From a virus: a stretch of 64,000 bases of DNA. The DNA lies in IMG/VR virus record IMGVR_UViG_3300034082_001419, positions 1 to 64,000 of that record; one strand, 5' to 3'. Numbering within the stretch: the stretch's first letter is position 1; every line of letters begins with the position of its first letter. This document shows positions 7,699 through 59,622 of the stretch, piece by piece. The translations under genes were made by a program, and so were the position numbers. The notes under the pieces are model-generated. The model ran no database searches. It had not been told where the DNA came from and worked only from the letters and a program-made list of their open reading frames with translations.

Positions 7699-7718
7699 AT
7701 TAAAAAAAATTAAAAAAG

Positions 7719-7937
7719 ATGAGTCAGATTCAATTAAATGCAGATGAGTTAAAAAACTTTATTAAACATATTATTAAAAACAATGAGATACTTCAACAAA
7801 CTGGTAAGATGCCTACAGCACTAGCTGTTGTTGGTGAAGCCGGTTTAGGTAAAACATCATCTATAATGCAAGTCGGTGAAGAATTAGATTTAGATGTTGT
7901 TAAGTTAAATTTATCACAAATTGAAGAATTAGGGGAT
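7719..7937 (+). CDS. Exon 1 of MoxR-type AAA+ ATPase
   Basis: The first 73 codons of the MoxR-like ATPase, with the Walker A motif G39-E-A-G-L-G-K-T46. Translation without splicing stops at TAA 7938-7940, the first three intron bases. Exon 1 ends GGGGAT and exon 2 starts TTAGTT, so splicing reads E-L-G-D-L-V-G-F without a shift. Confidence 0.85.
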
Positions 7938-7953
7938 TAAGATTTAGTTTTCT

Positions 7954-7974
7954 ACAAATATATTTGTATATTTG
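7954..7974 (+). promoter_or_regulatory. Palindrome and tandem TATATTTG before the intron endonuclease
   Basis: ACAAATATATTTGT (7954-7967) is a perfect 14-base palindrome. Overlapping it, TATATTTG occurs twice in tandem (7959-7966 and 7967-7974), matching the Bacteroidota -7 promoter consensus TAnnTTTG. They end 3 bases before ATG 7978. This could be an intron-internal promoter giving a near-leaderless mRNA, or a hairpin limiting translation of the endonuclease. No convincing -33 element was seen. Confidence 0.35.
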
Positions 7975-7977
7975 TAT

Positions 7978-8727
7978 ATGAAAACATCAATTCTTCAATT
8001 AAGTGCAAAAGAACTTAGACATAAATCTGGTATATACATGTTATCATGTAATAATAGATTTTATGTAGGTAGTTCTAAAACTTTATATGACAGATTATTA
8101 GAGCATAGACAAAAACTTTTGAATAATAAACATTCAAATGATTTTATGCAAAAGGCTTTTAATAAACATGGCATAAATAGTTTTGAATATGAGATATTAG
8201 AATTTTGCTTGCCAGAAAACAGAATATTAAGAGAAAAATACTACATTGATACATTAAAACCTGATTTTAATTTACAATTAGACCCCATTAGCAGAACTCT
8301 TTCTTTATACAGTAGACAAAAATTATCCAAATCAATTCTTAAAGGTATTGATGAAGGTAAGTATAAAAACAAATTTGATTATTGTACTGTTGAAGTATAT
8401 GATTATTTTGGAAATTATATTAAGTCTTTTAAAGATAAAGATGAAGCTTCTGAAAAATTAAACATTACTAAAAAAGATGTCCAAAGATTGGCTGGTGGTT
8501 ATGTTAAAGGTTTAAGTAAAAATGGAATAAGGTTAAGATACTCTGATAGCAAAACCCAAATAAAAAAATTTAATGTTGATCCTAAATATTTAGGTAAACA
8601 TTTTGATTTTTATTGTGATGGTGTTGTTGCTTTCAATAGTGTAAAAGATGTATGGAAATTTTTATCTGAACAAGTATTATCAGGCAAAACAAATTTTAAT
8701 ATTGATATTAAATTAAAAACCAACTAG
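7978..8727 (+). CDS. GIY-YIG homing endonuclease within group I intron
   Basis: A 249-residue protein from ATG 7978 (a TTG two codons upstream is less likely). The N-terminal catalytic domain has G-I-Y (18-20), Y-V-G (29-31), an Arg-containing helix (Y-D-R-L-L-E-H-R) and a later Glu in R-E-K-Y-Y-I-D. A C-terminal NUMOD1-type DNA-binding repeat (V-Y-D-Y-F-G-N-Y-I-K-S-F, about 130-175) follows. It probably cleaves intronless MoxR genes. The stop TAG overlaps the first base of the P1 3' strand. Confidence 0.88.
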   Translation: MKTSILQLSAKELRHKSGIYMLSCNNRFYVGSSKTLYDRLLEHRQKLLNNKHSNDFMQKAFNKHGINSFEYEILEFCLPENRILREKYYIDTLKPDFNLQLDPISRTLSLYSRQKLSKSILKGIDEGKYKNKFDYCTVEVYDYFGNYIKSFKDKDEASEKLNITKKDVQRLAGGYVKGLSKNGIRLRYSDSKTQIKKFNVDPKYLGKHFDFYCDGVVAFNSVKDVWKFLSEQVLSGKTNFNIDIKLKTN

Positions 8728-8994
8728 GTCCCCTTTAAACTCTGTGAACTCATGGAACATCCTGGTAAGGACAATCATGAGCCAAGCTTTGTAGAAATAC
8801 ATTGAAGGTGCAACGACTAGGTGATGGAGTCTTAACAAGTGATGTTGAAGATGGTAAACACCCACGAGCGCAGAGCTACTCCTTATGTGTATCAACACTT
8901 AAAGGGAGTAGATGATATAGTCTGAACTGTAGTAATAATACAAGTCCGTAAACTACAGAATCTAAGGATAAAGAGCCTTAGAGATAACATAATG

Positions 8995-9951
8995 TTAGTT
9001 GGTTTTCCATTCAAAGAGTTTGAAATGGTAAGAGAAGATGGTATGAACAAATGGGTTCCTGAAACAATTATGGATACATATATCAAAAACAGATATAAGC
9101 CAACAGGAAGAAATAGAATGAATTATGCAGCTCCAGAATGGATTGAAGGTAAAACTAAAGGTGGTATTTTATTGCTAGATGACTGGAATAGAGCTGATTT
9201 ACGCTTCATACAAGCCTGTATGGAATTAATTGATAGACAGACTTATGTATCTTGGAAATTACCAAAAGGATGGACAATATTGTTAAGTCAAAATCCTGAT
9301 AATGGAGACTATTCAGTTACTGCACAAGATATTGCTCAAACAACAAGATATATTACAGTTGAAATGAAATTTGATGTTAATACTTGGGCTAAGTGGGCTG
9401 AAGGATTTGGAATTGATGGCCGTGGAATAAATTTTATTTTAATGAATCCTGAACTTGTAACACAAAATGTTAATCCAAGAGCTATTACTACTTTCTTTAA
9501 TGCTATTAGCTCTATTGAAAAGTTTGAAGAGCAGTTACCATTAATCCAAATGATTGGTGAAGGTTCTGTTGGAGCTGAGTTCTCTAGTATGTTTACTATG
9601 TTTATTAATAACAAGATGGATAAGATTATTTCTCCTCAAGATATTATGACTAATACAAGTGAAGCATATGTAGTAGGAGCATTAAATGGTGCGGTAGGTA
9701 CAGGAGATGATTTTAGAGCTGATATTAGTAGTATAATTACTACCAGATTAATCAATTATTCATTAAAGCATGCATCTGAGCATGCAGTTAGTGATGCAAT
9801 GATTAACCGTTTGGTTAAATTGACTACAGATTGTGAAGCTTTCACAACTGACCTTAAATATTACATGGTAAAAGAGATTCTTGCAGGTAACAAACCTAAG
9901 TTTGCTAGACTAATGCAGAATGCTAATGTAATTAAAATGGCAGTTAAATAG
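8995..9951 (+). CDS. Exon 2 of MoxR-type AAA+ ATPase
   Basis: Completes a 391-residue protein. It supplies Walker B (G-G-I-L-L-L-D-D-W-N-R-A-D, Asp135 and Asp136 in the spliced protein), a sensor-1-like L-S-Q-N-P segment and the C-terminal helical lid. The ATG at 8992 belongs to the intron and is not a real start. MoxR ATPases act as hexameric remodelling machines with VWA-domain partners, here the gene just upstream. Both genes carrying introns suggests both are conserved enough to be good homing sites. Confidence 0.85.
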   Translation, partial: LVGFPFKEFEMVREDGMNKWVPETIMDTYIKNRYKPTGRNRMNYAAPEWIEGKTKGGILLLDDWNRADLRFIQACMELIDRQTYVSWKLPKGWTILLSQNPDNGDYSVTAQDIAQTTRYITVEMKFDVNTWAKWAEGFGIDGRGINFILMNPELVTQNVNPRAITTFFNAISSIEKFEEQLPLIQMIGEGSVGAEFSSMFTMFINNKMDKIISPQDIMTNTSEAYVVGALNGAVGTGDDFRADISSIITTRLINYSLKHASEHAVSDAMINRLVKLTTDCEAFTTDLKYYMVKEILAGNKPKFARLMQNANVIKMAVK

Positions 9952-9961
9952 ATATTAACAT

Positions 9962-9985
9962 AAAGCGGTGTAAAAAGCCGCTTTT
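9962..9985 (+). terminator. Rho-independent terminator after the MoxR gene
   Basis: A 7-bp stem, AAAGCGG (9962-9968) with CCGCTTT (9978-9984), then T residues. It separates the VWA/MoxR operon from the next gene. Confidence 0.65.
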
Positions 9986-9996
9986 AATTTAAAAAT

Positions 9997-11307
9997 ATGG
10001 AAAATACATTAATAATAAAACTACAGATTTCAAACTCTGATTACTATGATAATCATGATTTATCTTTACTTGATATTAATACAGAAGTTGATTTACAATA
10101 TGCTACATTTAACAGTGTAAGAACCTTGTTTCCTGTAACAACAGGTTATGAACCAACTACAGGTGATAAATTATTTTTTGCTAAAAGTGTAAATATACCT
10201 CGTGTAAAGCTTAAAAATCTTACAAAAGATTATAAAATAAAAGCTACAACAAAGATTGAAGAGGCAAGTGCAGTATTTATTTCAGATAATACTACTGCAA
10301 AATATACAGAAGCACGTTGGCATTATAATGTAAAAACTGAAAAGTTTAAAGAGTTTTTTCAAGGTGCAGTTGATGGTGGTTATATTGATGATTATTATGC
10401 AAATAAAGTAAATACAGCATTAGAGTTCTATGAAAATGAATATATTGCTATTGAATATAATACTAAAAGTATATTAGAAGATGTTCATATTCCTTTTAGA
10501 TTAACTGAAGGTGTAAGTTTTTCATCTCAAAGATTGCAATATATTAGTGATGAGTATGTTAGTTCATATAAAGACATGCTTAACTTTACTGGGCCAATAT
10601 ATGATGAATCTGAATTACTAAAGTATTTAAATGGTAGTGATGCATTAGCTATTGAAGAGAACATGTATGAAAGTTTATGTGAGATGTTTGATAGCTCAGA
10701 TAGAGATAATCATACATTAGCTATGGAGATAATGGCTAATTCACAGTTTGAAGATAGTATTTTATATTTAAGTTTATTGTTTAATAACTACTATAATAGA
10801 ATACAAGACTCAAGGAGTAAAAGCCATGTGAATTTTAAATCTTTACTTGCATTAATGGATATCAGAAGCAATTATTTTCATTTAGATATAGATCAAATAA
10901 TTGAGAGATTGAAAAAGCATGGTAAGTTGACTAAAGAAAATGTTGACATAATACTAAAGAAACTAGGAGACAAAATCATTAATGGTGGTGACTCAACGTA
11001 TTTTAAAATTAAAACAATTACAATGACTGAAGAGATGTTGGCTGTTTTGAATTTAAACTATGAGTATTCATTACATGGTGATTTTACACCACAATCTCCT
11101 GAGATTGAAGAAGAAGTTGTAGAAGAAATAGTATCTCTAGAAGAAGAAGCTGTTACTGCAACTGTAGAAGAAGAGATTGTTGAAGAAGTGGTAGAAACAA
11201 TTGAAGAAGTTGTTGAAGAAGTAGTTAACACACCTACAAGAGAGTTAATAGACTTTGACAATGTAATAGTAGAACCTAAAACAAATAATGATGGGTATTT
11301 CTTATAA
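9997..11307 (+). CDS. Hypothetical protein with acidic Val/Glu-rich tail, 436 aa
   Basis: Not recognised. The N-terminal 360 residues are mixed alpha/beta without clear motifs. Residues about 368-410 are a run of E-E-x-V-V-E-E units, a highly acidic, probably disordered or helical stretch, before a short conserved-looking end. It overlaps the following nuclease gene by 20 bases. An acidic tail next to recombination and replication proteins suggests a protein-protein or DNA-mimic role, but that is only inference. Confidence 0.6.
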   Translation: MENTLIIKLQISNSDYYDNHDLSLLDINTEVDLQYATFNSVRTLFPVTTGYEPTTGDKLFFAKSVNIPRVKLKNLTKDYKIKATTKIEEASAVFISDNTTAKYTEARWHYNVKTEKFKEFFQGAVDGGYIDDYYANKVNTALEFYENEYIAIEYNTKSILEDVHIPFRLTEGVSFSSQRLQYISDEYVSSYKDMLNFTGPIYDESELLKYLNGSDALAIEENMYESLCEMFDSSDRDNHTLAMEIMANSQFEDSILYLSLLFNNYYNRIQDSRSKSHVNFKSLLALMDIRSNYFHLDIDQIIERLKKHGKLTKENVDIILKKLGDKIINGGDSTYFKIKTITMTEEMLAVLNLNYEYSLHGDFTPQSPEIEEEVVEEIVSLEEEAVTATVEEEIVEEVVETIEEVVEEVVNTPTRELIDFDNVIVEPKTNNDGYFL

Positions 11308-12298
11308 TGAAGAATTAAATCAATTTTATAAAAGTGACTTTTATTTTAGTTACTCAAGTATAAATAAGCTGTTGTATTCACCAGCAGCTTTTTATAGACA
11401 CTATATCTTAAATCAAAGAGAAGATATGGTTGATGCTCATTTAGTAGCCGGGAAAGTAGTGCATTGTTTACTACTTGAACCAGAAAAGTTCAATGATGAA
11501 TTTATTGTAATACCAAGTAATTTACCAAAAGATAATAATAGATTACTTGTAGATGAAGTCTTTAAGGTTTTTCAATCACAACCTGATACAGATTTGACAT
11601 TAGCAGATTTTCCTGATTCAATAATTAGTGTACTTGTTGGTATTAATTTACACCAGTCATTGAAAACTGATGAAGGTAGAATTGCAAAGATGGTGACTGA
11701 ACAGAATACACAGTACTTTGAATTTTTAAAAGTAAAACAAGGTAAGACTATTGTAGATCAAACTACATTAGACACAGCAAAAGAATCTGTAGAGTTATTA
11801 AGAAACCATGAGACTGTAAGAAGTTTAATGCAACTTGATAATGATAAAGATGAAAATGTAAAAATATATAATGAAGAAGGAGTACAGATAAAATCAAGCA
11901 AGTATAAGTTTGGATTTAAAGGTATCTTAGATAATGTAGTAATGGACTATAATACTAAGACTTTGTTCATTAATGATTTAAAAACAACTGGTAAGGCTAT
12001 TCAAGACTTTCCAGACTCAGTGCAATATTATAAGTATTGGATACAGGCCGTCATGTATAAACAGTTGAGTTTGGGTAAATATCTTAGAGAATTACCAGAC
12101 GCAGCTGAATGGAAGGTTGTAATTACTTTTATTGTGATTGATAGAGCTAATTTAATTTACCCATTTCAGGTATCACCAGAAACATTAAAAGTATGGGAAG
12201 AAAACTTTAAAGATATATTGAATGTAGTAGACTATCATTATAGCAATAAAGATTTTAGTTTACCATATGAATTAGCAACCGGTAAAATTAAATTGTAG
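11288..12298 (+). CDS. PD-(D/E)XK nuclease, RecE/DUF3799-like
   Basis: A 336-residue protein. The N-terminal S-Y-S-S-I-N-K-L-L-Y-S-P-A-A-F-Y segment is typical of RecE/Cas4-like DUF3799 nucleases that degrade DNA ends. The catalytic signature is Asp215 (G-I-L-D-N-V-V), then Asp230-Leu-Lys232 in I-N-D-L-K-T-T. With the Sak4-like ATPase and SSB-like protein at the window start it could form a phage recombination system that resects ends. The start overlaps the previous gene; a second ATG follows immediately. Confidence 0.78.
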   Translation: MMGISYNEELNQFYKSDFYFSYSSINKLLYSPAAFYRHYILNQREDMVDAHLVAGKVVHCLLLEPEKFNDEFIVIPSNLPKDNNRLLVDEVFKVFQSQPDTDLTLADFPDSIISVLVGINLHQSLKTDEGRIAKMVTEQNTQYFEFLKVKQGKTIVDQTTLDTAKESVELLRNHETVRSLMQLDNDKDENVKIYNEEGVQIKSSKYKFGFKGILDNVVMDYNTKTLFINDLKTTGKAIQDFPDSVQYYKYWIQAVMYKQLSLGKYLRELPDAAEWKVVITFIVIDRANLIYPFQVSPETLKVWEENFKDILNVVDYHYSNKDFSLPYELATGKIKL

Positions 12299-12302
12299 AA
12301 TT

Positions 12303-12869
12303 ATGAGTATTGATGCGCTTTATAAGAATTATTTTCAAAAATCTAAGATATTTGTCTATCCGCTCTTAGGTATAAAAAAGGGTGTAAGTGTTACTCCAGT
12401 CCAAACTTATTTTGGCTGGAATGACTATGTAACACCCGAGGATATGAAACTAGTTGCTGTATATCATGAGAGAACTGATCAAGATTACATCAACTTTGAA
12501 AAAAATGTATTACTGAAACATAATCGGCTGAGTGATTACATTAAACTAAATGACACTGAAGTATTATATACATTTGATTTTTCTGATATGGAGTCAGATT
12601 GGATGCATTTAATTAATGGTAGATATAGTAAGATGAATCCTACAGTAAAGCGCAAAATAAGGGACCATTTTGATAAGAATGGGAGTAATTACATGTATAT
12701 GGATAGTTTCTTGTTTCCTGAAAAGTATTTCAATATTTATTCTGAGTTATTAGGAGTAGATGAGGAAGTATTAAAAAATGTAGGGGAACTATGTACTACA
12801 CCAGACATGGAAAAAGAAATATTAATGGTTGCTGTAAAAGAGTTGCAGGATCCAAAAATAAATATGTAA
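12303..12869 (+). CDS. Hypothetical protein, 188 aa
   Basis: Not recognised. Begins 4 bases after the nuclease stop. A mixed alpha/beta protein with several aromatic residues (Y-F-G-W-N-D-Y, W-M-H-L-I-N-G-R-Y) and no cysteine cluster or membrane segment. Co-transcription with the RecE-like nuclease and the polymerase suggests a DNA-metabolism accessory. Confidence 0.6.
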   Translation: MSIDALYKNYFQKSKIFVYPLLGIKKGVSVTPVQTYFGWNDYVTPEDMKLVAVYHERTDQDYINFEKNVLLKHNRLSDYIKLNDTEVLYTFDFSDMESDWMHLINGRYSKMNPTVKRKIRDHFDKNGSNYMYMDSFLFPEKYFNIYSELLGVDEEVLKNVGELCTTPDMEKEILMVAVKELQDPKINM

Positions 12870-12891
12870 TTTGTAAAATAAATAAAATAAT

Positions 12892-13278
12892 ATGACAGGA
12901 GAAAACACAATGACATTGATCAGTTCAGAATGGAATGGTCACAGTACTTTTAGAATGATACCAGTATCTAATGATGCACCGTATGTAGAATGTATTTATG
13001 ATTTAACTTCAGGGTTATTTGTAATCATTGGTAAGGTAACTAAGACAAGTTTGCATATGTTACCAAAATTAGATGAGAATGGTGATCCAATGGGTACACA
13101 AGCAATGAGAGCAAATGGTAGAAATGTTAAAGAAGAGAGAATCTCTAGTGAAACATTTCAAGAGTATTATTTGGATGACAAAACTGATATTAAAAACTTA
13201 ATTAACTACTTAGGTGTTAACTCTAAAGATTTTGATTTTCAGACTACATTAGATAAAGCAGTTGTAGCTGCAAAATAA
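12892..13278 (+). CDS. Hypothetical protein, 128 aa
   Basis: Not recognised. The second Met (residue 7, ATG 12910) is an alternative start. It is beta-rich at first (F-R-M-I-P-V, then V-E-C-I-Y-D-L) with a helical C-terminal end. A likely terminator follows directly, so it closes a three-gene transcript. Confidence 0.6.
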   Translation: MTGENTMTLISSEWNGHSTFRMIPVSNDAPYVECIYDLTSGLFVIIGKVTKTSLHMLPKLDENGDPMGTQAMRANGRNVKEERISSETFQEYYLDDKTDIKNLINYLGVNSKDFDFQTTLDKAVVAAK

Positions 13279-45462: not shown

Positions 45463-47640
45463 TTAATCAAGTTCTTCAACAGTATAACCAGCTTTTCTTA
45501 ATAATTCAATTGTATGATCATCTAACTCATCTTCCCAGGCTTCAGTTATACCACCTTGTTCATATGCTTTTTTACCAAAATTAAAGTTTCCTGATTTTAA
45601 TCTCTGTAACTCATTAAATTGTCTTTCAGTTACTAAACCATTTTGATTTTTAACTGATCCAATCAAGTCTTTATAAAACTTTTTATTTGTAGGTGAAAGA
45701 GCTTTACTATCAAATGTACCTAAAAGTTGAGTATAATAGTCAGGATTTTTTATTTCATATTTTGACATATTCATACTTCCTAGACCTGCTTGTACAGGAG
45801 CATTTGTTGTAGATTGGGTAGGAATTTTTTTATATCCCTGTAACCAATGTTGTTTATAAATATTAACATTAGGATCATTAAATAAAACAGGTTTATTGCC
45901 TGGTGTTGTAATTTCATAGCCAAAATTTTCCATTGGAGATACACCATGAGTATCAAAATTTGGCATATTATGAGAATTAGTTACTTCAACCATGTGTGGA
46001 CCTTCAAATTTATTCCAGTTCCATACCCTATTATTTTTTTCACCAGCAAATGATGTCTTATCAATTACTTCTTGAGGAAACTTATATTTTCTAGCATCAA
46101 ATGGAACACCTTGACTATAATATGTTTCTTCAAATGCTTTATTGCTAAAACTTGGATCATATATATCTACTTGATTACTTCTAAATACACCTGATTTTTT
46201 TGCATCTTCTAAACCTTTTTTACCTAACATTCTATATGCTGATTCAGGATTTGGTTTAAATGCGTATGGATTTATTTTATATGCATTAGACAATAAACCT
46301 GTTTCTGTTCCTAATGTTTTACCTAAATACCTAACACCTGGTTTTATTCCTAATCTAACTGCATCATCAAGTAATCCTGAACCTGGTGCAAATCTTAATG
46401 CTTCTAACGCTGCATCACCATATTTACCTCTGTAAGCATTTCTTACAACTTTATCACCTGCATCTAAAAGATTTAATGAACTATTTATTGTATTACCAAC
46501 AAGATTTCTACCTTGAACTACACCTGGATCAATACCAGCCATACGCATCTCATTAATATTATGAGGCATGTTTTCCGCACCTCCACCTGATATTGCATAT
46601 TCTGCTGCAGTCATTGGATTAGTAACATATTCCCATGCTCTATTTGAATTACTTTGTTCAGGTGTTGCTTGCATCATATCAGGACCAGGTCTATCTTGTT
46701 GACCTACCCCTGCAAATGACCATTGTTGATTAGCAACATTTTCTAAATCTGCATTAGTAACTGGTATACCTTTTTCTTTACCAAAATCTTTTAGTTTTTG
46801 TTGTTCAGTAATAATTTTATCTTGTGTTTTTTCATATTTAGATTTATCAGTAACTTTAAAATTTTTATCAAAAGCTTGTTGTGCTTGTTTTTGTTTTGCA
46901 GTAAGTTGAACTTTTTTCTTTTCAACTGGTGTAGAACTCCAACCTGTATTAGATTGAGCATCTTGATCTCTTATATCTCTATTAAATGTTTTTACTGTTT
47001 TACCAGTTTGTGCTTTAACTAGTTCATGTTGTACATAGCCTCCTATTTCATATTCAGGTTCTTCATCTACTTCATAACCTGCTTCTTTATATGCTTGTAT
47101 CTCTTCATCAGTAAGATCCATATATTCATCTTCATTTTCCCCACCGTCTTCTTTAGTAGGTAGATTAAAACCATAGTTTAATTCATAGTGACTTAATGGA
47201 TTTGGATTAAGATTAATTAGGCCTAGTTTAGAACCACCTGATTTAAACTTTGAGTTAGGGTCAAATATCTTACTCTTTTTATTTTTAAACAATTTATTCT
47301 TAGTGAATAGTTTATTAGTAGCAGATATATTACTAGAGTACTTCTTGCTTTGAAGAGTACCACCTTTTCTTACCATTGGTGTTTCATCTACATAATCTGC
47401 ATCAGGAAAATTATAATCTTGACCAGGTTGCATCATAGAACCAGGACCAACATTAGGTTGAGCCCATACAGGATAATTAACTCCTTCCATAGTTATATCA
47501 TTACCAGGTATTCTAGTCTTTTGTCCTGGATATTTCCACTGACCTGCAGGATCAGTTATTATGTCTCTTGGTTTACCCGGTGCTTTTGCTTTACCTAATT
47601 CTGATACAGCTTTAGATAATACTTTTTTATTAAATCCCAT
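45463..47640 (-). CDS. Gly-Gly-motif virion protein with possible ART-like region, 725 aa
   Basis: The N-terminal part (D-I-T-M-E-G-V-N-Y-P-V, P-G-Q-D-Y-N-F-P) resembles conserved starts of Bacteroidota phage late proteins. It has two copies of an acidic module, T-D-E-E-I-x2-Y-K-E-A-G-Y (about 175-200) and T-I-E-L-L-R-K-A-G-Y-T-V at the C-terminus. Residues about 465-600 (A-Y-R-M-L-G-K-K-G-L-E-D-A-K-K-S-G, later Y-Y-S-Q-G-V-P-F-D-A-R) recall the start of ADP-ribosyltransferase-like toxin domains. That reading is weak. It starts at the base where the tail gene ends (overlap of one base). Confidence 0.5.
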   Translation of the reverse strand: MGFNKKVLSKAVSELGKAKAPGKPRDIITDPAGQWKYPGQKTRIPGNDITMEGVNYPVWAQPNVGPGSMMQPGQDYNFPDADYVDETPMVRKGGTLQSKKYSSNISATNKLFTKNKLFKNKKSKIFDPNSKFKSGGSKLGLINLNPNPLSHYELNYGFNLPTKEDGGENEDEYMDLTDEEIQAYKEAGYEVDEEPEYEIGGYVQHELVKAQTGKTVKTFNRDIRDQDAQSNTGWSSTPVEKKKVQLTAKQKQAQQAFDKNFKVTDKSKYEKTQDKIITEQQKLKDFGKEKGIPVTNADLENVANQQWSFAGVGQQDRPGPDMMQATPEQSNSNRAWEYVTNPMTAAEYAISGGGAENMPHNINEMRMAGIDPGVVQGRNLVGNTINSSLNLLDAGDKVVRNAYRGKYGDAALEALRFAPGSGLLDDAVRLGIKPGVRYLGKTLGTETGLLSNAYKINPYAFKPNPESAYRMLGKKGLEDAKKSGVFRSNQVDIYDPSFSNKAFEETYYSQGVPFDARKYKFPQEVIDKTSFAGEKNNRVWNWNKFEGPHMVEVTNSHNMPNFDTHGVSPMENFGYEITTPGNKPVLFNDPNVNIYKQHWLQGYKKIPTQSTTNAPVQAGLGSMNMSKYEIKNPDYYTQLLGTFDSKALSPTNKKFYKDLIGSVKNQNGLVTERQFNELQRLKSGNFNFGKKAYEQGGITEAWEDELDDHTIELLRKAGYTVEELD

Positions 47641-50600
47641 TATCTGAGTGATATTTGATTTTTACTATTACTAATTTTAACTATCATATTTACATCTTGA
47701 GAATTAGCTTTGCTCAAATATAAGAAATTTAAATAGTGTCTGAATTTTTTTCTCTCAAGTTGATTCTTAGCATAATCTAAGTTAGTAGTATTTAATGTTT
47801 TAATATAACCATTAGACTGAGTATTCCATATTACTTCTTGAGTATATATACCAGCAAGAACTGTTGTACCTGGAACTACTGCACCGGTAGGTGGGTATGA
47901 TGAACCATTTGGAAACTCACCTCTATTTTTAGTTATATCCCAGAATTGATTAAATCTGTATTTGTTTTCCTCTTTAGAGAATAGTACATCAATAGATCCC
48001 GGATTAACTTTAGGATATGTATTAGCAAGTGTAATATTATTTTTAGGGAATATATTAAGATTTAAATATCCAGATACTTGTTCAGAATTATATACTACTG
48101 CTTTATCAAAGTTATAATCAAGTACATGATACTGATCAATACAATTTATTGGACTATTTTTATAACATTCAAGAATATACTCCATTGATTTAAGAGTAGT
48201 AATTGTTTGTCCTGTTATTAATGGTATCTCAACCTCAAATGGATGCTGAACACCATAGAAATTACAATAACTATTACATGCTACATTATGTTTCCATAAT
48301 CTACCTTCTTTAGTTGTCATAAAAAATTGTCTTGCAGGTAACACAAAATCTGGATGCCAGTCATGATATGAAATCCAATAATTACTTTTAGGATCAAAAC
48401 TTGCTGTCCATGATGCATTTTCAAATATAAGAGGATCACCTAACTCAATTCTTGCTTGACCATTAACTAAAAAGTAATCACCATATCTATCATATGTTAC
48501 AATAGTACCTGGAGCTAAATCATTTCTTAATTTATAATCTTTTTTACAGAAATAGATAACTCCGTTATAATTATCATATACTGCTTGTGTACCAATACCA
48601 GCAACAGGATTATCAGTATGTGGATAATCAGGAAAATCTTCAGTAAGTTTATATGGTAAAAATAAACTGAACCACCATTTCATACCTTGTTGAGATATTT
48701 CTTTTAGACCTCCTTCAAATGCAAACACTCTTCCTTGATTTTGAGATATATAATACATACCTGCTGGAGTAGCAATTACACCAAACTTATTTTGAGAAGA
48801 ACCATATTCATACTCTACATCAGATATTGTTACATTTTGAGGAGGATTAGCAAATAAACCACCATCACCAATAGTAATTTTAGTACCTAAGTCTGTTTCA
48901 AGAGTATCAGTACCTTGATATATTAATGGACTAGAATTTTGGAATGTAATAAACATACCAGTTTTAGCATATGGTTTTATACTTGTAATTCTATTTTTAA
49001 ATTCTTTATAGTTATTAACTAGATAAACAAACCATGAATCTTTAGATGACTCATTTTGTTGAGGTAGTGAGTAAACAACTCTATCAGGATAGTAAGTATA
49101 ACATAACTGAGATACAATAGGATTATAATATCTTGATTGTAAATTACCTTGAGAGAAATATTGAGTAAATACTTTAGATATACTTAATGAATAATCATAT
49201 GCATAATAGTTTCCTCTTGCAATTGTATCAGGATTCATATTAAACATTGCTGGTAAATTAGTATAGGTATTACGGTCATAGTGTTGTTCATATACTGCAG
49301 TACCAGGTTCTCTAAAGTCTACTAATACATCTGACTCAACAAAGAAATCTCTTACTGAAGAATTAGCTAAATAGAAATACGCTTCTTTAGCACCAAATAC
49401 TCCAGGGTATGTGTCTAGACCACCATCTGGTGTATCATTATTATAATTCCATTTTCTACCACTATTTCTATAATAATCTAAATCATAAAAATCTGTAGGT
49501 TTAAACCCGTTACCAGGAGTTGGATTTGTCCAGTTAGCAGGAGTTAAGTCACTACTATCATATAGTTCACTGTTAACCCAAAATCTTGGTTCAGCAATCA
49601 TATGTCTTAAAATATAATTATATTCATATCCATCTGGTTGATCATAAAGCCAGTCATAGAAAAAGAACATATTATTTTTTTCTGTATATCTATTTACATA
49701 TGTATCACCACCAAAAAATACTGGTGACTGTTGTATCGCTCTAAGTCTTATTTCTACAGTTCTTAAACCAACCGGTGTACTTATTGAACAAAAGAAAGGA
49801 CTTCTTGTTATTACTGTATTTACACCATTATAATTTAATTTTTGTTCTGATGGTGTAATTGGTATTTGTTTAATTGAATCAAGTTGACCATATTGATTTC
49901 TTAGTCTTACTTTAATTCCTCCATAATGACTTGCTATAGATAAATTAAATGGGTTAGATTTACCGTCAGTCATATTAACTGGTAAACCTCCTGCTTGTAT
50001 TGCTGTTCCTAATGTTACTAATGATTTATCTGCATTTGGACCGATAATATAATCTGGACCATTGTCAACTTTAGTTGTGCTACCAGATGATGTTCTTAAT
50101 GTAACTGATGTTTGTCTTTTAAGATTATTGATAATATAATTTATACCACTAAAAGATTTAACATTTTGTATATTATTTTTTAAATAAAAACTGTCTTCAA
50201 TATTAAATCTTTGTACTTGAGATGTATTAGGTACATCAAAACCACTATAAAAACCTTCTGCAATTGATTGTAAAGCAAATTGTCTATACGGTAATAAAGC
50301 ATAAATTAATCTTAAAGTTGTGTTTGCACCATCTAAAAAATAAAAAAGTGATTGAGGTAAACCATATAAAACACCTAATGCACCAGCATATGCAAGTTTT
50401 GGTACTTCTCTTTGATATTCATTTGCTATACCAATTGTTGCATTAGTAGCTCCTAAAGCATTTACAGTACTGATATATGTAGCATTTATTGAAGACAAAA
50501 CTGGATTAATACCAAATGTAAAAGCATCAGCAAGAGTTCCTACACCTGAAACAAGATAAGCTTTCATAGCTGTGTTATATGCAGCTTGAGCAACTGCAAC

Positions 50601-52946
50601 AGCGGCAGCACCACCTGTAGCAACACCATAAGCAACACCAAATGAATCACTAGCACCTGTACCAGGAACAGGTTTACCCAGTGTAGTAGTCATTTTACCT
50701 ACATTTTGTATAATAACTTCAATGATACCACCAATAAACATTGCAAATACTGTAACATCTGCTAATAATTTAAATCTTGGATGTTTATCAGGTTCTTCAA
50801 AATATTGTACTGATGTACCTGTTAGACTACCATATAGTTTTAGTTCAGTAACAGATAAAAATGGATTTCTGAAATTAGTATCTGGTGAGTGAAAAGTTAC
50901 CATATTAGTTGGTAGTGTCTGAGGAGCATCTTTTGGCAATCTAATATATGGATCATTATTTCCTGCTACGTGTCCACCTAATGATGCTGATAGTGGTTCA
51001 ATAGTATTAAATGGATAGTTAGGATATAAACCTATTCTACCAGCTGCTGCATTACCTTTAATTTCATAAGTACGCAAATTATTAAGCATACCTTTAGCAA
51101 TGATGCTTCTATTACCTTCTCTTGATCCTCTTAGTATTTCATAACCTACTATACCTGGTATATCATTACCATCATTATCTTTTGGTAAAATAATATTATT
51201 AAATGTAACACCCATTAGTCTAATTGCTTGACCACCATCTCTATAATGATTTGTCAACTTAGAACCAGAAGTTATATTATCAGGAAACTTATGATGTCTA
51301 ATTGGTTTACCACATAAATCAAAAGGAGATGTTCCACCAGGCGGTGGAGGTGGAACTCCACTCCAACATTGAGATGAAGCATCCCATATATCATGTCTAT
51401 TATCTGGATACTTTTCAGTTGACTCCCAGTAACCCATTCTTCCTTGAGCAACTACAATACCTCCATCAGGTAAAACTGTACCAGGTGCTCCAGTTTGAGT
51501 AGCCGTATTATATACTTCAAAATATCTATCATCTGGACTTAAAGAATTTAAATCTGCTGTAAGTTGTGTTTCTGATATTCCATTGAATGTACCTGCAACT
51601 CTACCTGGTATATGATATGAAGATGTTTTATCTCCTGTATTATATACCCATCTTATAAAGAATGTATATACTTCATCTCTTAAGTAACTTGTATTACTTC
51701 CTCCTTGTACATAATAATCAGATGTATATTCAACTGAACTCCATAAAGCTTGAATTTGATTAGCTAATGGTTGATAGTTAAAGTCAAATCTAGATCTTGG
51801 AGCTATTCTTAGTAAATAATTATTAACCTCAGTCATTTGATCTGATGTTTCATATACTAAGTTTCTTATTGGAATTTGTTCAATAGGTACAGTTATTAAA
51901 TCATCTTTGATTTGATCTAAATGTACTACTGATGTATTTGTAGAATATAAACCAATTCTTTTAGCAACAGCACCTTGATTAATTATTTGTACTACTACTA
52001 ATTCAAATTCATCAAAATGTACATTATCTGCATTAATAAAAATATCAATACAACTTGCAACATCATCAACATTCCAAAGTGGTTGTGTGTTACTTGGTGA
52101 AAAATAATCTGTAACTTTTTGACCTTTAATAGTATAAGCAATAACAGCAAAGTAAGATCCATTTCTTAATACACCACCTCCAACTCCTGGTTTAATTTCA
52201 ATTGTTGGTGATGACATTAATCTTGCAAGTCTTATATCTTCACAGTTTAATATTGTTGTATCTTCACATGTTATACAATCATTTGGTCCTGGACAACCTG
52301 CAGGCCATACATCTGGTATTGTTTGTTGACAACCTGAATCAGTATGACATAATTGTTTCCATTGTACACCTGGCCATTGCATAGTCATACCACTAACAGA
52401 ACTACCATATTTATTGTTTCCAATCCATTGATAATCAGCACTTGGCCATAAATCATTATCACCAATATTTAAATATCTATCTGGATTTAGACCATCTGCA
52501 AAATATACTCCCCATGAGCAATCTTCTTTTTCTCTTGAAGCACCAGTAATTAAATTTCTTTTATCAAAGTTTAAACAATCATCTTGTACAATTATCCTAT
52601 ATGTACAAGTATCTTCTTCAAATAATCCTATTTCATGTCCAGTAGGTAAACCAACACCACTTGTTGGATATGCAACTGTAAATAAAATCCATTTATCAGA
52701 ATATAAATGCATTGTTCCAATAATATATTTTTTACCAGGCAATGTTGCTCCAGCTTCACCACACTCTACATTTGATGTTTCATTAGATAGTGTTCCAATA
52801 TTTCCTTCAAGTGTATTGTTTACAGCATTACGGGCATGTGTCCACATACCTTCAGCAACAAATGTAGGATCTGAATCTTTATTTAATCCCTTTACAAAAG
52901 TGTTTGTTTTATTCTGTGATGTATCTTGTATATTTTTCTTTGCCAT
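47640..52946 (-). CDS. Tail hub/nozzle-like protein, 1768 aa (tail stabilisation type)
   Basis: A very large, beta-rich late protein. The start region, K-T-N-T-F-V-K-G-L-N-K-D-S-D-P (about 14-28) then E-G-M-W-T-H-A-R-N-A-V-N-N, has the form seen in crAss-like tail stabilisation proteins, which are compared to P22 gp10/T7 gp12. It contains a Gly/Ala-rich hydrophobic stretch (about 735-860), perhaps internal helices of a hub, and several Cys in the first 230 residues. It is followed by the Gly-Gly proteins and preceded by two tail ring/tube candidates. Identity rests on size, order and the N-terminal pattern. Confidence 0.55.
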   Translation of the reverse strand: MAKKNIQDTSQNKTNTFVKGLNKDSDPTFVAEGMWTHARNAVNNTLEGNIGTLSNETSNVECGEAGATLPGKKYIIGTMHLYSDKWILFTVAYPTSGVGLPTGHEIGLFEEDTCTYRIIVQDDCLNFDKRNLITGASREKEDCSWGVYFADGLNPDRYLNIGDNDLWPSADYQWIGNNKYGSSVSGMTMQWPGVQWKQLCHTDSGCQQTIPDVWPAGCPGPNDCITCEDTTILNCEDIRLARLMSSPTIEIKPGVGGGVLRNGSYFAVIAYTIKGQKVTDYFSPSNTQPLWNVDDVASCIDIFINADNVHFDEFELVVVQIINQGAVAKRIGLYSTNTSVVHLDQIKDDLITVPIEQIPIRNLVYETSDQMTEVNNYLLRIAPRSRFDFNYQPLANQIQALWSSVEYTSDYYVQGGSNTSYLRDEVYTFFIRWVYNTGDKTSSYHIPGRVAGTFNGISETQLTADLNSLSPDDRYFEVYNTATQTGAPGTVLPDGGIVVAQGRMGYWESTEKYPDNRHDIWDASSQCWSGVPPPPPGGTSPFDLCGKPIRHHKFPDNITSGSKLTNHYRDGGQAIRLMGVTFNNIILPKDNDGNDIPGIVGYEILRGSREGNRSIIAKGMLNNLRTYEIKGNAAAGRIGLYPNYPFNTIEPLSASLGGHVAGNNDPYIRLPKDAPQTLPTNMVTFHSPDTNFRNPFLSVTELKLYGSLTGTSVQYFEEPDKHPRFKLLADVTVFAMFIGGIIEVIIQNVGKMTTTLGKPVPGTGASDSFGVAYGVATGGAAAVAVAQAAYNTAMKAYLVSGVGTLADAFTFGINPVLSSINATYISTVNALGATNATIGIANEYQREVPKLAYAGALGVLYGLPQSLFYFLDGANTTLRLIYALLPYRQFALQSIAEGFYSGFDVPNTSQVQRFNIEDSFYLKNNIQNVKSFSGINYIINNLKRQTSVTLRTSSGSTTKVDNGPDYIIGPNADKSLVTLGTAIQAGGLPVNMTDGKSNPFNLSIASHYGGIKVRLRNQYGQLDSIKQIPITPSEQKLNYNGVNTVITRSPFFCSISTPVGLRTVEIRLRAIQQSPVFFGGDTYVNRYTEKNNMFFFYDWLYDQPDGYEYNYILRHMIAEPRFWVNSELYDSSDLTPANWTNPTPGNGFKPTDFYDLDYYRNSGRKWNYNNDTPDGGLDTYPGVFGAKEAYFYLANSSVRDFFVESDVLVDFREPGTAVYEQHYDRNTYTNLPAMFNMNPDTIARGNYYAYDYSLSISKVFTQYFSQGNLQSRYYNPIVSQLCYTYYPDRVVYSLPQQNESSKDSWFVYLVNNYKEFKNRITSIKPYAKTGMFITFQNSSPLIYQGTDTLETDLGTKITIGDGGLFANPPQNVTISDVEYEYGSSQNKFGVIATPAGMYYISQNQGRVFAFEGGLKEISQQGMKWWFSLFLPYKLTEDFPDYPHTDNPVAGIGTQAVYDNYNGVIYFCKKDYKLRNDLAPGTIVTYDRYGDYFLVNGQARIELGDPLIFENASWTASFDPKSNYWISYHDWHPDFVLPARQFFMTTKEGRLWKHNVACNSYCNFYGVQHPFEVEIPLITGQTITTLKSMEYILECYKNSPINCIDQYHVLDYNFDKAVVYNSEQVSGYLNLNIFPKNNITLANTYPKVNPGSIDVLFSKEENKYRFNQFWDITKNRGEFPNGSSYPPTGAVVPGTTVLAGIYTQEVIWNTQSNGYIKTLNTTNLDYAKNQLERKKFRHYLNFLYLSKANSQDVNMIVKISNSKNQISLR

Positions 52947-52957
52947 AATATAAAGTA

Positions 52958-53974
52958 TTATAATAAACGCATGCTGTTATAGTTATAACTCTTAAACATG
53001 TCATAGTATTTAGCATATTGTGCTCTTCTGTTAGCCATCCATAAACCTTTCATTTCTGCAAAGTTTGGAGTATTAACAATTGATAAGGCATAGTTTCTTG
53101 CAACCTTAAGTCTTTGTTCTATAAGTTGTAACTTTTGAGATACATCTTCACCATTAAGATACAAGTTCTCAAATATTCTTTGTTTCATTGCATACTCATA
53201 GTATTCATTTATCTCATCATGATCAGGAACTAATAAGTTACCATCAGCATCTTCAAGTGCTCCTTGATAATTAAGATATATTTTACCGCATTCAAATGTA
53301 GTATGTAAGAATCCGTTTTTAATCCATGCTTCATTAGCTGCATTAATATATAAATTAGGACAATCACATTCAATTTCTTGAGATGCTTTAAATCTTAATG
53401 GTATTAAAGCTTCATATGTTCTTGTTTCACCTGTAGGCATAATTTGAATTAACTCAAATTGATCTCCTTTACAGTTAGAAAATACTCTAGGTCTTATACA
53501 AGTATCACCAAATGGATTAAGTGGATCATATCCTGGTACAACAACAGGGGAACAATCAGGAACATGTCCTTGACAAGCTACTGTATGATTACATGGATTA
53601 GCATTACATGTTGAACAGTTAACCGTTGGAGGAGCACATACATCTACTGAACCAGGTACTTCTACATATGGTACTTCCATTGTAGTTGTACCACCACTTC
53701 TATATCCTACTTGTTGTTTAAATGACCCACATATAGAACCAAAGTTCATAGTAAAGAAATCATCAGGTAGTTTTATCTTATGATGTTCTACCTCAAGAAT
53801 AACTTCTTTAGTCATATTAATTCTAAGACCTAAATCATATGTTACTCTCTTAGCAACTTTAATTAGTTGTTGAGGCTCTATCATATTTTCAAGAGCATAT
53901 GTATTTAAATCAATTGTAACATCTTCCAGTAACTGGTCAAATGTTCTAAACTTGAGTGTATAGTTAAAGTCCAT
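52958..53974 (-). CDS. Tail structural protein (ring/tubular type), 338 aa
   Basis: Starts with a helical segment (F-R-T-F-D-Q-L-L-E-D-V) and has a Cys-rich central insertion (C-A-P-P-T-V-N-C-S-T-C-N-A-N-P-C, about 110-135) that may bind a metal or form disulfides. Gene position between the 223-residue protein and the 1768-residue hub matches tail ring/tube genes of crAss-like phages. Overlaps the upstream gene by one base (53974). Not identified by any catalytic motif. Confidence 0.5.
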   Translation of the reverse strand: MDFNYTLKFRTFDQLLEDVTIDLNTYALENMIEPQQLIKVAKRVTYDLGLRINMTKEVILEVEHHKIKLPDDFFTMNFGSICGSFKQQVGYRSGGTTTMEVPYVEVPGSVDVCAPPTVNCSTCNANPCNHTVACQGHVPDCSPVVVPGYDPLNPFGDTCIRPRVFSNCKGDQFELIQIMPTGETRTYEALIPLRFKASQEIECDCPNLYINAANEAWIKNGFLHTTFECGKIYLNYQGALEDADGNLLVPDHDEINEYYEYAMKQRIFENLYLNGEDVSQKLQLIEQRLKVARNYALSIVNTPNFAEMKGLWMANRRAQYAKYYDMFKSYNYNSMRLL

Positions 53975-55310: not shown

Positions 55311-55347
55311 AAAAAAAATAACCCCGGTAATGAGCACATACCGGGGT
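55311..55347 (-). terminator. Strong terminator after the FISUMP receptor-binding-type gene
   Basis: A perfect 9-bp stem (ACCCCGGTA 55321-55329 with TACCGGGGT 55339-55347), loop of nine, followed on the - strand by TATTTTTTTT. It lies about 42 bases beyond the stop at 55389 and ends the fibre operon. Retroelement target genes often have a hairpin shortly after the variable region, but this one is simplest as a terminator. Confidence 0.85.
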
Positions 55348-55388
55348 CTTGTTGTCAGCCACAGAAACCAACAAACTGCGACATATTT

Positions 55389-57224
55389 TTAGTCTTGTAT
55401 TAATCTTACTGAATACCCATTTCTCTTATTGATGAGGTTTCTGTAAGCATTGCCATCGTTGTAGAACAAGTTGCGGCTCCAAGCATAGTTCGTATTGTCC
55501 TCCGTAGAACTCCACCAGTAACCGTTGTCGCCAATGTTGTTATTATTTCCATTAAATCCGTTGCGGAACCCGCCAGGAAGACCAGTAAATAAAGACGTAT
55601 TAGTTGCTCCTATATTTGGTGTTTGCCAATGAGTAAATCCTGTTTCTTTCATTGCTCCTCCAGCTGCTGCATTTCCTCCTAAAGTTGTAGTTAAAGTTGT
55701 CCATTCAGTATCTGAAGGTACATGGTAACCTGCTGGTGCCAATCCACCATTTGCTGTATTATTAACAGCATACCAGTTATACAATTTACCATAAACAGGT
55801 CCATTTGCTGAATCATTATTATACCAACACCACGCTCCTGTAGTTAAACCAGCCCATCCTGTTGGATCTGTTACTTCTGGAATTAATGTACCATCTCTAT
55901 ATCTATCAACATTTAAGTTACAACTTGTCCAAACTTGAGTTCCTATAGTAACATCTAGGCATGTTTCTTGTATAAATCTAACTGACAACCCAGCTCTCTT
56001 AAAGCCGCTGCCTCTGGAAGCATTGCCATTGGTGAAGTTCAAGACGCGGCCCCAAGCATTGTAGGCATCGTTCTCTGTAGAACTCCACCAGTAACCGTAG
56101 TAACCCATGAAGTTGTAAGTTCCACCGTAGTCGCGTTGACCGCCCGGAAGACCAGTAAATAATGAAGAATTAGTAGCATATAAATTAGGTGCATCCCAAT
56201 GACAAAAACCTTCTTCTTTCATCTTGCCTCCAGCTACAATTTCTCCACCTAGATAGTCGGTAAGAATTGTCCACTCAGCATCTGTTGGCACTTTCCATCC
56301 AGCAGGTGCAATACCTCCATTTGTAGTATTATTAATTGCATGCCAATTATAAAGTTTACCATATGTAGTTTCTGTAGAAGGATCATTATTATAATAGCAC
56401 CATGCTCCTGTTGTTAATGCTGACCAAGCATTATTATTCTCAACATATGGGATAAGTATACCATCTCTATATGTAGATACTGTTGCATTACACCTAGTCC
56501 AAACTTGAGTACCAATTGGAATATTTTGTTCTACACAATCTGGACATGGATCTATTGTATCTTCTATTAATCTTACAGAGCATCCAGTACGTTTAATGTT
56601 ATCACCACCACCAAAGAGACCATTGTAGTTGACCAAGAACATAGCCCTAGCAAAACCTGGATAAATATCATCTTCTGTAGTAGTCCACCAGATACCGTTT
56701 TCGCCAATGTAGTTGTAAGGCCCAAGCTGATCACGTTGTCCACCGGGAAGAGCTGTAAATAATGATGTGTTAGTTGCATCAGTATTAGGATTTATCCAAT
56801 GACAAAAACCTTCTTCTTTCATCTTGCCTCCAGCAATAAGACCTCCTCCTAAATTATCTCTTAGAACTAACCATTCAGCTTCAGAAGGAACATGATAGCC
56901 TGTTGGAGCAAGTTGTTTTCTTAATAAGGGATCAAGTAATGATGCTTCATCATAAATTCCTACTACTGCATACCAGTTGTATAACTTACCATATATGGCA
57001 TCATTAGCGGGATTATTATCATAATGACACCAAGCACCTGTTGTTGCTATTTCCCACTGATAATCATCAGTTATTTCAGGTATAACTGTTACACCATCTG
57101 AATATGTAGTTACATCTAAATTACATCCTGTCCATACTTGTCCATAAATATCTATATTATTTGGATCACAATTAGGACAATTATCTCTCCTTGTTCTATA
57201 TATATCTTTTTTAAAACTCCACAT
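55389..57224 (-). CDS. Triple FISUMP (C-type-lectin-like) surface protein with variable regions, 611 aa
   Basis: Three tandem copies of the Fibrobacter-succinogenes-major-paralogous domain (about 25-225, 235-425 and 430-611). Each has Q-V-W-T-x-C-N, G-A-W-C-x-Y, Y-G-K-L-Y-N-W, an H-V-P-S or K-V-P-T segment with E-W, L-F-T-x-L-P-G-G and W-W-S/T-S/T-T-E, ending in S-V-R-L/F-I. The fold presents hypervariable surface loops and is a common retroelement target. The third copy is Asn-rich in its end segment. It lies among fibre genes, so it is probably a host-binding adhesin. No enzyme activity is expected. Confidence 0.85.
   Translation of the reverse strand: MWSFKKDIYRTRRDNCPNCDPNNIDIYGQVWTGCNLDVTTYSDGVTVIPEITDDYQWEIATTGAWCHYDNNPANDAIYGKLYNWYAVVGIYDEASLLDPLLRKQLAPTGYHVPSEAEWLVLRDNLGGGLIAGGKMKEEGFCHWINPNTDATNTSLFTALPGGQRDQLGPYNYIGENGIWWTTTEDDIYPGFARAMFLVNYNGLFGGGDNIKRTGCSVRLIEDTIDPCPDCVEQNIPIGTQVWTRCNATVSTYRDGILIPYVENNNAWSALTTGAWCYYNNDPSTETTYGKLYNWHAINNTTNGGIAPAGWKVPTDAEWTILTDYLGGEIVAGGKMKEEGFCHWDAPNLYATNSSLFTGLPGGQRDYGGTYNFMGYYGYWWSSTENDAYNAWGRVLNFTNGNASRGSGFKRAGLSVRFIQETCLDVTIGTQVWTSCNLNVDRYRDGTLIPEVTDPTGWAGLTTGAWCWYNNDSANGPVYGKLYNWYAVNNTANGGLAPAGYHVPSDTEWTTLTTTLGGNAAAGGAMKETGFTHWQTPNIGATNTSLFTGLPGGFRNGFNGNNNNIGDNGYWWSSTEDNTNYAWSRNLFYNDGNAYRNLINKRNGYSVRLIQD
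55392..55584 (-). repeat. Variable region 3 (template-like, Asn-rich)
   Basis: The C-terminal segment of FISUMP domain 3 (about residues 547-610). By eye it is more G/C-rich than the flanking sequence and unusually rich in AAC/AAT codons. It aligns with variable region 2 and differs from it mainly at first and second codon positions. Confidence 0.6.
55975..56148 (-). repeat. Variable region 2
   Basis: The corresponding segment of FISUMP domain 2 (about residues 360-416). It shares T-A-C-T-G-G-T-G-G-A-G-T-T-C-T-A-C with region 3, and most of the remaining codons differ in a way that fits independent change from shared AAY codons. Confidence 0.55.
56565..56745 (-). repeat. Variable region 1 (diverged)
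   Basis: The matching segment of FISUMP domain 1 (about residues 161-222). It keeps the same protein pattern (G-G-Q-R-D, W-W-T-T-T-E, K-R-T-G-C-S-V-R) but also differs at third codon positions, suggesting an older copy no longer matching the same template. Confidence 0.4.
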
Positions 57225-58044: not shown

Positions 58045-59622
58045 TTAAAAAGCTCTTAGTGCACGTACTGCACAAGATGTTGTAGATTTATTAGTATAAC
58101 TTGTAGTTCCAAAGTCAAATGATTTTGTAATAGCTTCTGAAGCATTAAATTCTGTACTTGACCAATAAAGTTCATTTGCTGCAAGTACATCATAACCACC
58201 TACGGCATCTAATATTTTATTTACAATTGGTGCTACATTAAATAAATAGTTTAATTCCCATATAGCTGGTAAATACCAGTCTGTGAAACCACCATAAGTA
58301 TATATATCTGCTAATCCTGCTGCATATGTTCCAACTGCAGGTGCCCCTGTTTGTGCTACAATTGCATTAGTATTTGATAAACCATTATATCTATTTTTTG
58401 CACCAACACCTGGTACAGTTGTAGAATCATATGCGGGTATTGCCCATTCAATACCATAACTTAAATTAAAAAGTGAAGCAATTAATCCTTTTTCTATACC
58501 TGCTTCTTTCCATACTGCTATTACTATACCACCACCATATAGTTCACCTATATAATGTGTGAATGCTCCAGGCACTGTTACATCAACAGTAACATCACCA
58601 ACACCTGTTGTAGGAGTTAATGTTACATTTGTTCCAGCAATAATTTTTGTAACACCTCCATTAACCAATGGACTTGCTGGTGTTCCTAATCCTGTTATAG
58701 TTGTACCATCAACTGATATTTTAACTATTGGATTTAATGGATCTGTATTATCTGTGTTTAATCCTGTTACTGATCTTACAGTAGGCGCATTTCTTAAGTC
58801 TTTAACACAAGCCCATAAGTTATTTATTGTACCTGCAATTGTTGCTGTTGGTGTTGTCCATAAACCAGCGTACTGTGCAGACATTTGTGCAGCAGGATTA
58901 ACTTTTGATAAATCAGTTGCAGCTACTGTTTGATTAGAAACTGCTGTAGATAATGCTCCTGTATTTCCTGTTGCTGCAACAAATGGAAACCAAATTTGAT
59001 TTACATATGAATCAATAACAACATTAATAGGTTGTGTACTTCCTGCAGCTAATATTGGTACAGAAGGTAACTCATATGCCATTACCATTGTAGGTGTAGT
59101 ATATGAAGGAGGTGGTGTAGTTTCTAAATCAGTTACTCTTACATCTAGATTATCAATTTGATTTTGTTGTAATGTTATTGTAGTTACTAATGTACATATT
59201 CTTGTACCTATAGTAGTTACATAATTTGTTAAATTCATAGTTGTAACTCCACCTGTTACAAAACACGGAGCAACCTCAACAAAACAATCTGTAGGACAAC
59301 CTGATGATGGTACTGGTGGAGTTGCACCTCCTCCTGAACTTGGTGTTCCATTATCTAACTCACATACTTTAACAATTAAAAAATTAATTAAATCTGTAAA
59401 GTTTTGTGGAGAACAATTAGCTAAACTAAAACATGTAAGATCATATGCTGTAATATTTAATGTATCAAGTATTGTACATATTTCTAATGCAATTTTTTCA
59501 ACTACATCTGTAATATTATCTCCTTTACATAAATTAATACATTGTAAATCTGGTCCACCCCAAATTACACAATTTGAAGATGTAGGGCTACATGGAGAAT
59601 TATCAAAGTTTAATGGTTTCAT
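58045..59622 (-). CDS. Fibre-like protein with DUF1566 (Lcl) C-terminal domain, 525 aa
   Basis: N-terminal Cys-containing segments (C-S-P-T-S-S-N-C, C-I-N-L-C-K-G-D-N-I-T-D-V-V-E-K-I-A) similar to the start region of the stalk protein, then a Thr/Val/Gly-rich beta region. The C-terminal domain (about 350-525) has W-Y-L-P-A-I-W-E-L-N-Y-L and L-Y-W-S-S-T-E-F-N...C-A-V-R-A-L-R-A-F, the DUF1566/Lcl signature, a C-type-lectin-like fold related to FISUMP. No variable-region codon pattern is visible here. Probably a second host-surface or polysaccharide-binding fibre. Confidence 0.65.
   Translation of the reverse strand: MKPLNFDNSPCSPTSSNCVIWGGPDLQCINLCKGDNITDVVEKIALEICTILDTLNITAYDLTCFSLANCSPQNFTDLINFLIVKVCELDNGTPSSGGGATPPVPSSGCPTDCFVEVAPCFVTGGVTTMNLTNYVTTIGTRICTLVTTITLQQNQIDNLDVRVTDLETTPPPSYTTPTMVMAYELPSVPILAAGSTQPINVVIDSYVNQIWFPFVAATGNTGALSTAVSNQTVAATDLSKVNPAAQMSAQYAGLWTTPTATIAGTINNLWACVKDLRNAPTVRSVTGLNTDNTDPLNPIVKISVDGTTITGLGTPASPLVNGGVTKIIAGTNVTLTPTTGVGDVTVDVTVPGAFTHYIGELYGGGIVIAVWKEAGIEKGLIASLFNLSYGIEWAIPAYDSTTVPGVGAKNRYNGLSNTNAIVAQTGAPAVGTYAAGLADIYTYGGFTDWYLPAIWELNYLFNVAPIVNKILDAVGGYDVLAANELYWSSTEFNASEAITKSFDFGTTSYTNKSTTSCAVRALRAF

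Follow-up and report, generated by a model that had tools for sequence, protein, structure and literature searches.

Phages of the order Crassvirales infect Bacteroidota (PMC10136315), and diversity-generating retroelements (DGRs) have been described in cis in crAssphage LMMB (PMC7290462) and in Zeta crAss-like phages (PMC12386605). DGR action in trans has been reported within one genome, in Thiohalocapsa PB-PSB1 (PMC10907252) and on the remote targets of Trichodesmium (PMC8867640), and also in laboratory two-plasmid set-ups (PMC12875486). Homing in the Bordetella phage BPP-1 requires a 3' homing site (IMH) and a hairpin, and a donor supplied in trans works in this system in the laboratory (PMC3240598). 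A hairpin downstream of the variable region (VR) is not strictly required (PMC12875486). DGR surveys seek a reverse transcriptase (RT) adjoining the repeat, and one survey required the RT within 1 kb (PMC8144416); therefore, such surveys cannot detect phage targets that were written from a different genome. In the searchable open-access literature, we found no virus target that had been matched with a template of cellular origin. The crAss-like phage described here is a DGR target without the machine.

A crAss-like phage and its FISUMP gene

The window analyzed is a 64-kb stretch of a phage record of 121,494 bp (121.5 kb). Since the 127-bp ends of this record are identical, we consider the assembly to be closed. 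The genome encodes the crassvirus major capsid, muzzle, and ring proteins, which places the phage in Crassvirales; hallmark profiles of this order were matched by PF23898 (E=3.5e-32), PF25731 (E=1e-30), and PF24228 (E=8e-11). INPHARED phages did not include a close relative.

The target gene (55389..57224, minus strand) encodes a protein of 611 aa with three FISUMP domains (Fib_succ_major, PF09603; Pfam E=6e-106). It is located in the crAss-like tail/fibre gene cluster, with the muzzle protein (47640-52946) and the ring protein (52958-53974) as neighbors. Domain 3 (55392..55961, minus strand) was modeled by AlphaFold with a mean pLDDT of 97.7, and the top PDB matches in a fold search with this model were C-type-lectin-like, but not significant (E>0.7). 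Two written variable regions are present on the same strand: VR3 (55404..55577; 120-nt core 55416-55535) and VR2 (55977..56147; 120-nt core 55989-56108). Domain 1 contains a degraded copy, VR1 (56571..56747, minus strand), which the original prediction had not mentioned. VR1 is probably an older write that has since decayed; its GC content at third codon positions (GC3) of ~0.36 and its mismatches to the template (39/71 at A, 32/100 at non-A) fit an old, decaying write.

Two further genes of this phage were noted. The C-terminus of a 525-aa neighbor (window 58045-59622, minus strand) matches Lcl_C slightly below the Pfam cut-off, and this gene does not show a GC3 spike. Lcl_C was formerly named DUF1566 and is another domain that DGRs target. 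A DnaB-like helicase gene has an intein carrying an HNH endonuclease (L003:15970-17805; genome 118970-120805).

The codon signature of a DGR had been claimed for two of the FISUMP repeats, with pairs derived from AAY codons among fixed codons and only a few exceptions. We aligned the FISUMP domains codon by codon, taking 54 codons as the VR and 127 as the rest of the domain. The signature was real; the pairs, the fixed codons, and the few rule-breakers had been listed accurately, and the coordinates given for the variable repeats were correct. Domains 2 and 3 differed at 21, 16, and 10 first, second, and third codon positions, respectively, within the VR and at 37, 25, and 56 outside it. Third positions were, thus, spared in the VR as had been proposed (10/54 versus 56/127 outside, p=0.001). 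The 120-nt cores of VR2 and VR3 differed at 30 bases (16, 10, and 4 at codon positions 1, 2, and 3). When scored on an independently found template, the core of which consists of 54 A and 66 non-A positions, 27 of these 30 differences fell on adenines and 3 on the other bases (Fisher p=6e-9). We concluded that the signature is a genuine DGR product and that this phage fibre gene underwent DGR-type adenine mutagenesis. Gene conversion between VR2 and VR3 was ruled out by the same 27 differences because conversion would have homogenized the adenine positions too.

The original prediction also had not noted that no 54-codon stretch of the genome is richer in GC3 than VR2 and VR3 (0.61), which rank as its top two; the genome mean is 0.149. 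GC3 was 0.59-0.63 in VR2 and VR3, 0.625 in the template, and 0.12-0.14 in the domain flanks. The flanks have settled at the composition of the phage, unlike VR2 and VR3. Since the flanks are phage-like and the VRs template-like, we consider the VRs to have been written after the domains became resident in phage DNA. In a comparison of phage domain 3 with the bacterial domain, third positions differed by 57% in the flank and by 11% in the VR; across the phage-bacterium comparisons, the difference ranged over 48-57% in the flank and 11-17% in the VR. This contrast excluded the capture of whole domains from bacteria because the flank and the VR would then have aged together, which they did not. 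Ordinary drift or selection does not yield such a pattern of GC3 and codon positions.

The bacterial template

The all-AAY template that had been predicted exists, with Avd and RT adjoining it, on the chromosome of a freshwater bacterium. A degenerate all-asparagine template pattern was found in 13 bacterial contigs, mostly of Flavobacteriales and other Bacteroidota. The best match to the phage, by a wide margin within its bacterial family, was the L095/L130 template on a 28.5-kb contig of a 2.9-Mb MAG, the NCBI label of which ('Chryseobacterium gleum') was not relied on. This contig contains the RT (9359-10672; RVT_1 E=2e-23), the template core (10684-10803), bAvd (10944-11339; E=1e-15), and a collagen-FISUMP surface protein with a VR (11516-13267). 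It is a complete, textbook DGR with target, Avd, template, and RT. Since genes for LptD, an iron-sulphur/CCG-domain protein, and spermidine synthase are present on the same contig, we regard this DGR as chromosomal.

Against the 120-nt template core, VR3 had mismatches at 16/54 A and 2/66 non-A positions (Fisher p=4e-5) and VR2 at 27/54 and 5/66 (Fisher p=1e-7). The VR of the bacterium itself had 22/54 and 1/66. Related crAss-like contigs, which are partial, as are all of the phages with written VRs other than the present one, gave similar counts at A and non-A positions, respectively: 21 and 3 in L018, 25 and 4 in L010, 21 and 4 in L005, and 16 and 5 in L008. No RT was found in these four contigs. 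At this locus, L010 and L018 are sister phages; they differed from each other at 29/54 A and 1/66 non-A positions. Changes at template adenines comprised A>G (55), A>T (53), and A>C (18). A template core inferred from the phage VRs alone was identical to the bacterial template at 116/120 bases, and three of the four differences stem from the inference rule. The identity between L010 and L021 was 77-79% just upstream of the VR, 53% inside it, and 93-94% just downstream. Since identity falls inside the VR alone, only a template-sized tract was replaced; the exchanged tract in L018/L006 is likewise of approximately the length of the template.

Three more distant phage contigs (L022, L024, and L083) have VRs of a second template type, with GGAGGGTATCGC at the start and TCATCAGAG or TCGTCAGAG instead of TCTACGGAG. 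No template for this second type was found.

VR genes on contigs without an RT are common in the family of L130, including in MAGs that sometimes lack an RT. Therefore, the DGRs of this family seem to act in trans already. Flavobacteriales MAGs G307, G405, G406, and G475 have several FISUMP genes per genome (L273, L238, L243, L236, L235, L237, L275, and L277). Their VRs match one template family, lie on contigs without a DGR RT, and share a near-identical 3' homing site among the dispersed targets. A full RT of the template's family was not found in these four MAGs.

Cassette searches and the 3' homing site

No RT was found by Pfam (RVT_1) in the closed phage genome, and tblastn with the bacterial DGR RT and Avd did not match it. 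A search with an HMM built on ten DGR RTs, in which filters were switched off and stop codons were read through, did not reveal a cryptic or recoded RT in this genome. A template repeat was also absent from it; blastn (word 7) and an adenine-tolerant scan matched only the VRs. The template and RT anticipated for the complete genome or its host were, thus, both missing from the phage; they were present on a Flavobacteriales chromosome, to which no link from this phage was found. The DGR reading stands for an adenine-mutagenized fibre gene, but not for an ordinary phage DGR because the closed genome has neither template nor RT.

Of 114 additional records from this or similar phages, many of them longer than 85 kb, 113 also lacked an RT; two records in this set are counted twice. 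The majority of one batch had no FISUMP gene at the fetched locus and, therefore, inform on the lineage and not on the gene. The sole RT-bearing record, L086 (IMGVR 3300002552_000056), is an 11-kb viral-catalogue contig of a different kind with a FISUMP VR, an Avd-like protein, a template, and an RT in cis (6914-9206). The detection of this cis DGR and of the bacterial RTs served as positive controls for the RT search. The exact inferred-template pattern did not match any viral contig, and a looser, degenerate pattern matched only L086 among 2.9 million viral contigs.

All but one of the closest phages by the neighboring gene (92-98%) lacked a detectable FISUMP gene at the locus. In the exception, L155 (duplicate record L156), which is the closest relative at the locus, the VRs are unwritten, with a GC3 of 0.18. 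A near-identical phage pair differing only in the VR was, therefore, not found among these phages. Neither CRISPR nor other evidence linked the phage to a host; when 20 kb of its DNA were compared with 240 genomes of the template's family, the strong matches were confined to the FISUMP gene.

The 3' end of bacterial VRs of the template's family is conserved as GG(G/C)TTGTCTGTTAGGTGCCTCAGGGATTAA or a close variant. Phage VRs contain at most the first 14 nt of this homing site (GGGTTCTCTGTTAG or nearly), followed by their own LIKD-type end, and their 3' ends read GGGTTCTCTGTTAGA... The homing-site-like end of VR3 in this phage (55405..55418, minus strand) is eroded to GGGTATTCAGTAAG, versus GGGTTCTCTGTTAG in the template and the bacterial VR, and the bacterial continuation GTGTTTGAGGGATT is absent after it. 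This phage has retained 10-11 of the 14 nt, whereas its relatives share ~14 nt, and the 3' half of the site is absent. Hence, a 3' homing site shared with the template was not found here. Since the 14-mer is degraded and the 3' half missing, the IMH and hairpin of BPP-1-type homing are not fully represented. VR2 and VR3 may no longer be DGR targets because even the 14-nt stretch has eroded; L018 and L008 are better candidates for activity than this phage.

A hairpin with a T-run (ACCCCGGTA/TACCGGGGT) is located 3' of the FISUMP gene (55311..55347, minus strand), approximately 57 nt after VR3. It looks like an ordinary intrinsic terminator from its sequence. VR2 lies inside the gene, and we saw no classical hairpin after it. 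A shared motif, GTTTGTTGGTTT, was noted 3' of the FISUMP gene (window 55350-55385; also in L010 and L018), ahead of a GC-rich terminator-like stretch. It did not match Rfam, and no Rfam match was obtained anywhere within the 64-kb window.

Origin of the variable regions and comparison with known systems

We consider it probable that VR2 and VR3 arose through writing in trans, with the DGR belonging either to the bacterial host or to a co-resident element. During infection, template RNA, RT, and Avd would be supplied in trans and lead to mutagenic retrohoming into the phage FISUMP gene. Adenine-mutated cDNA of the bacterial template would then replace the matching tract of the FISUMP domains, and the surface of the tail-fibre protein would be varied, with each domain core offering as many as 20 AAY codons. 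As the source of the machinery, we favor a DGR on the chromosome of an L130-like Flavobacteriales host over a co-resident element that carries the same template family. The chances that the host's own DGR performed the writing are roughly even, and the MAG carrying the template may differ from the actual host species. We infer that a bacterial machine acts on phage DNA, that an L130-like lineage is the host, and that the variation alters receptor binding. These results suggest a phage that relies on a borrowed bacterial mutator for the variation of its host-binding protein.

Other origins were weighed. Homologous recombination over short tracts, or gene conversion, may have brought already-written VR DNA from FISUMP genes of bacteria into the phage, in which case retrohoming never occurred in phage DNA. 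The bacterial genomes of the family offer many VR-bearing FISUMP genes that are ~70% similar to the phage gene at the DNA level, VR2 shares the 5' edge TCATTATTTACTGGTCTTCCG with several bacterial VRs, and the phage lacks an intact bacterial homing site. However, we regard such capture as unlikely because six or more distinct writes from a single template are needed, two of them within this gene, the exchanged tract equals the template length in L010/L021 and similarly in L018/L006, and whole domains are excluded by their third positions. An even less probable origin is the recent loss of a template and RT that an ancestor possessed, which would make the VRs relics. RT is missing from 113 of the 114 further phage records, many of them >85 kb, the pattern that matches the 13 bacterial templates retrieved only the different contig L086 from the viral contigs, and the related phages all match a bacterial template; these findings argue against loss, whereas the eroded homing site of this phage, the cis DGRs of some crAss-like phages, and reports of incomplete cassettes (PMC7290462, PMC12386605) are consistent with it.

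The exposed loops of receptor binders evolve rapidly, and ordinary positive selection on such residues, with codon bias producing the pattern, would not involve a DGR at all. This is hardly credible for VR2 and VR3, in which the third bases are conserved and rich in GC even though the GC3 of the genome is 0.15, the differences are located at the adenines of an independently found template, and the same pattern recurs in other phages. The template matches and the adenine restriction of the VR2/VR3 differences refute this reading.

Writing in trans, if true, means that the mutable part of the phage host range depends on the last-infected bacterium, that a bacterial mutator serves its own parasite, and that targeted mutation may operate in many phages currently believed to be without it. 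Such targets could be sought cheaply with adenine-masked bacterial templates combined with a scan of AT-rich phages for local spikes of GC3. The broader proposal, that an environmental clade of crAss-like phages without a mutator of its own diversifies its tail fibres via the chromosomal DGR of Flavobacteriales hosts, is evenly balanced in our estimation; it would imply that mutagenic retrohoming can start from a template on a bacterial chromosome and end in the genome of a virus.

The locus resembles cis-DGR Crassvirales in the adenine-mutated VRs of tail-fibre genes, the C-terminal variable domain, and the Bacteroidota-infecting order. However, those phages encode an RT and, where complete, a template, whereas the present closed genome has neither, its FISUMP domain occurs in three copies, and its template is bacterial. 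The DGRs of Thiohalocapsa and Trichodesmium also have VRs distant from the RT and template, with the non-adenine match as the criterion for action in trans. In contrast, their target and template share one genome, while a virus target and a bacterial-chromosome template are involved here, and the non-A match is imperfect (61-64/66). The BPP-1 DGR (PMC3240598) similarly mutagenizes adenines in the gene for a phage receptor-binding protein, but its cassette is in cis with IMH and a hairpin, whereas the bacterial homing site is only half present here. The FISUMP-target DGRs of the human microbiome have the same variable domain family, and target contigs without an RT were expected and searched for in that study; however, neither a complete phage genome nor a template from another organism was involved (PMC4159848).
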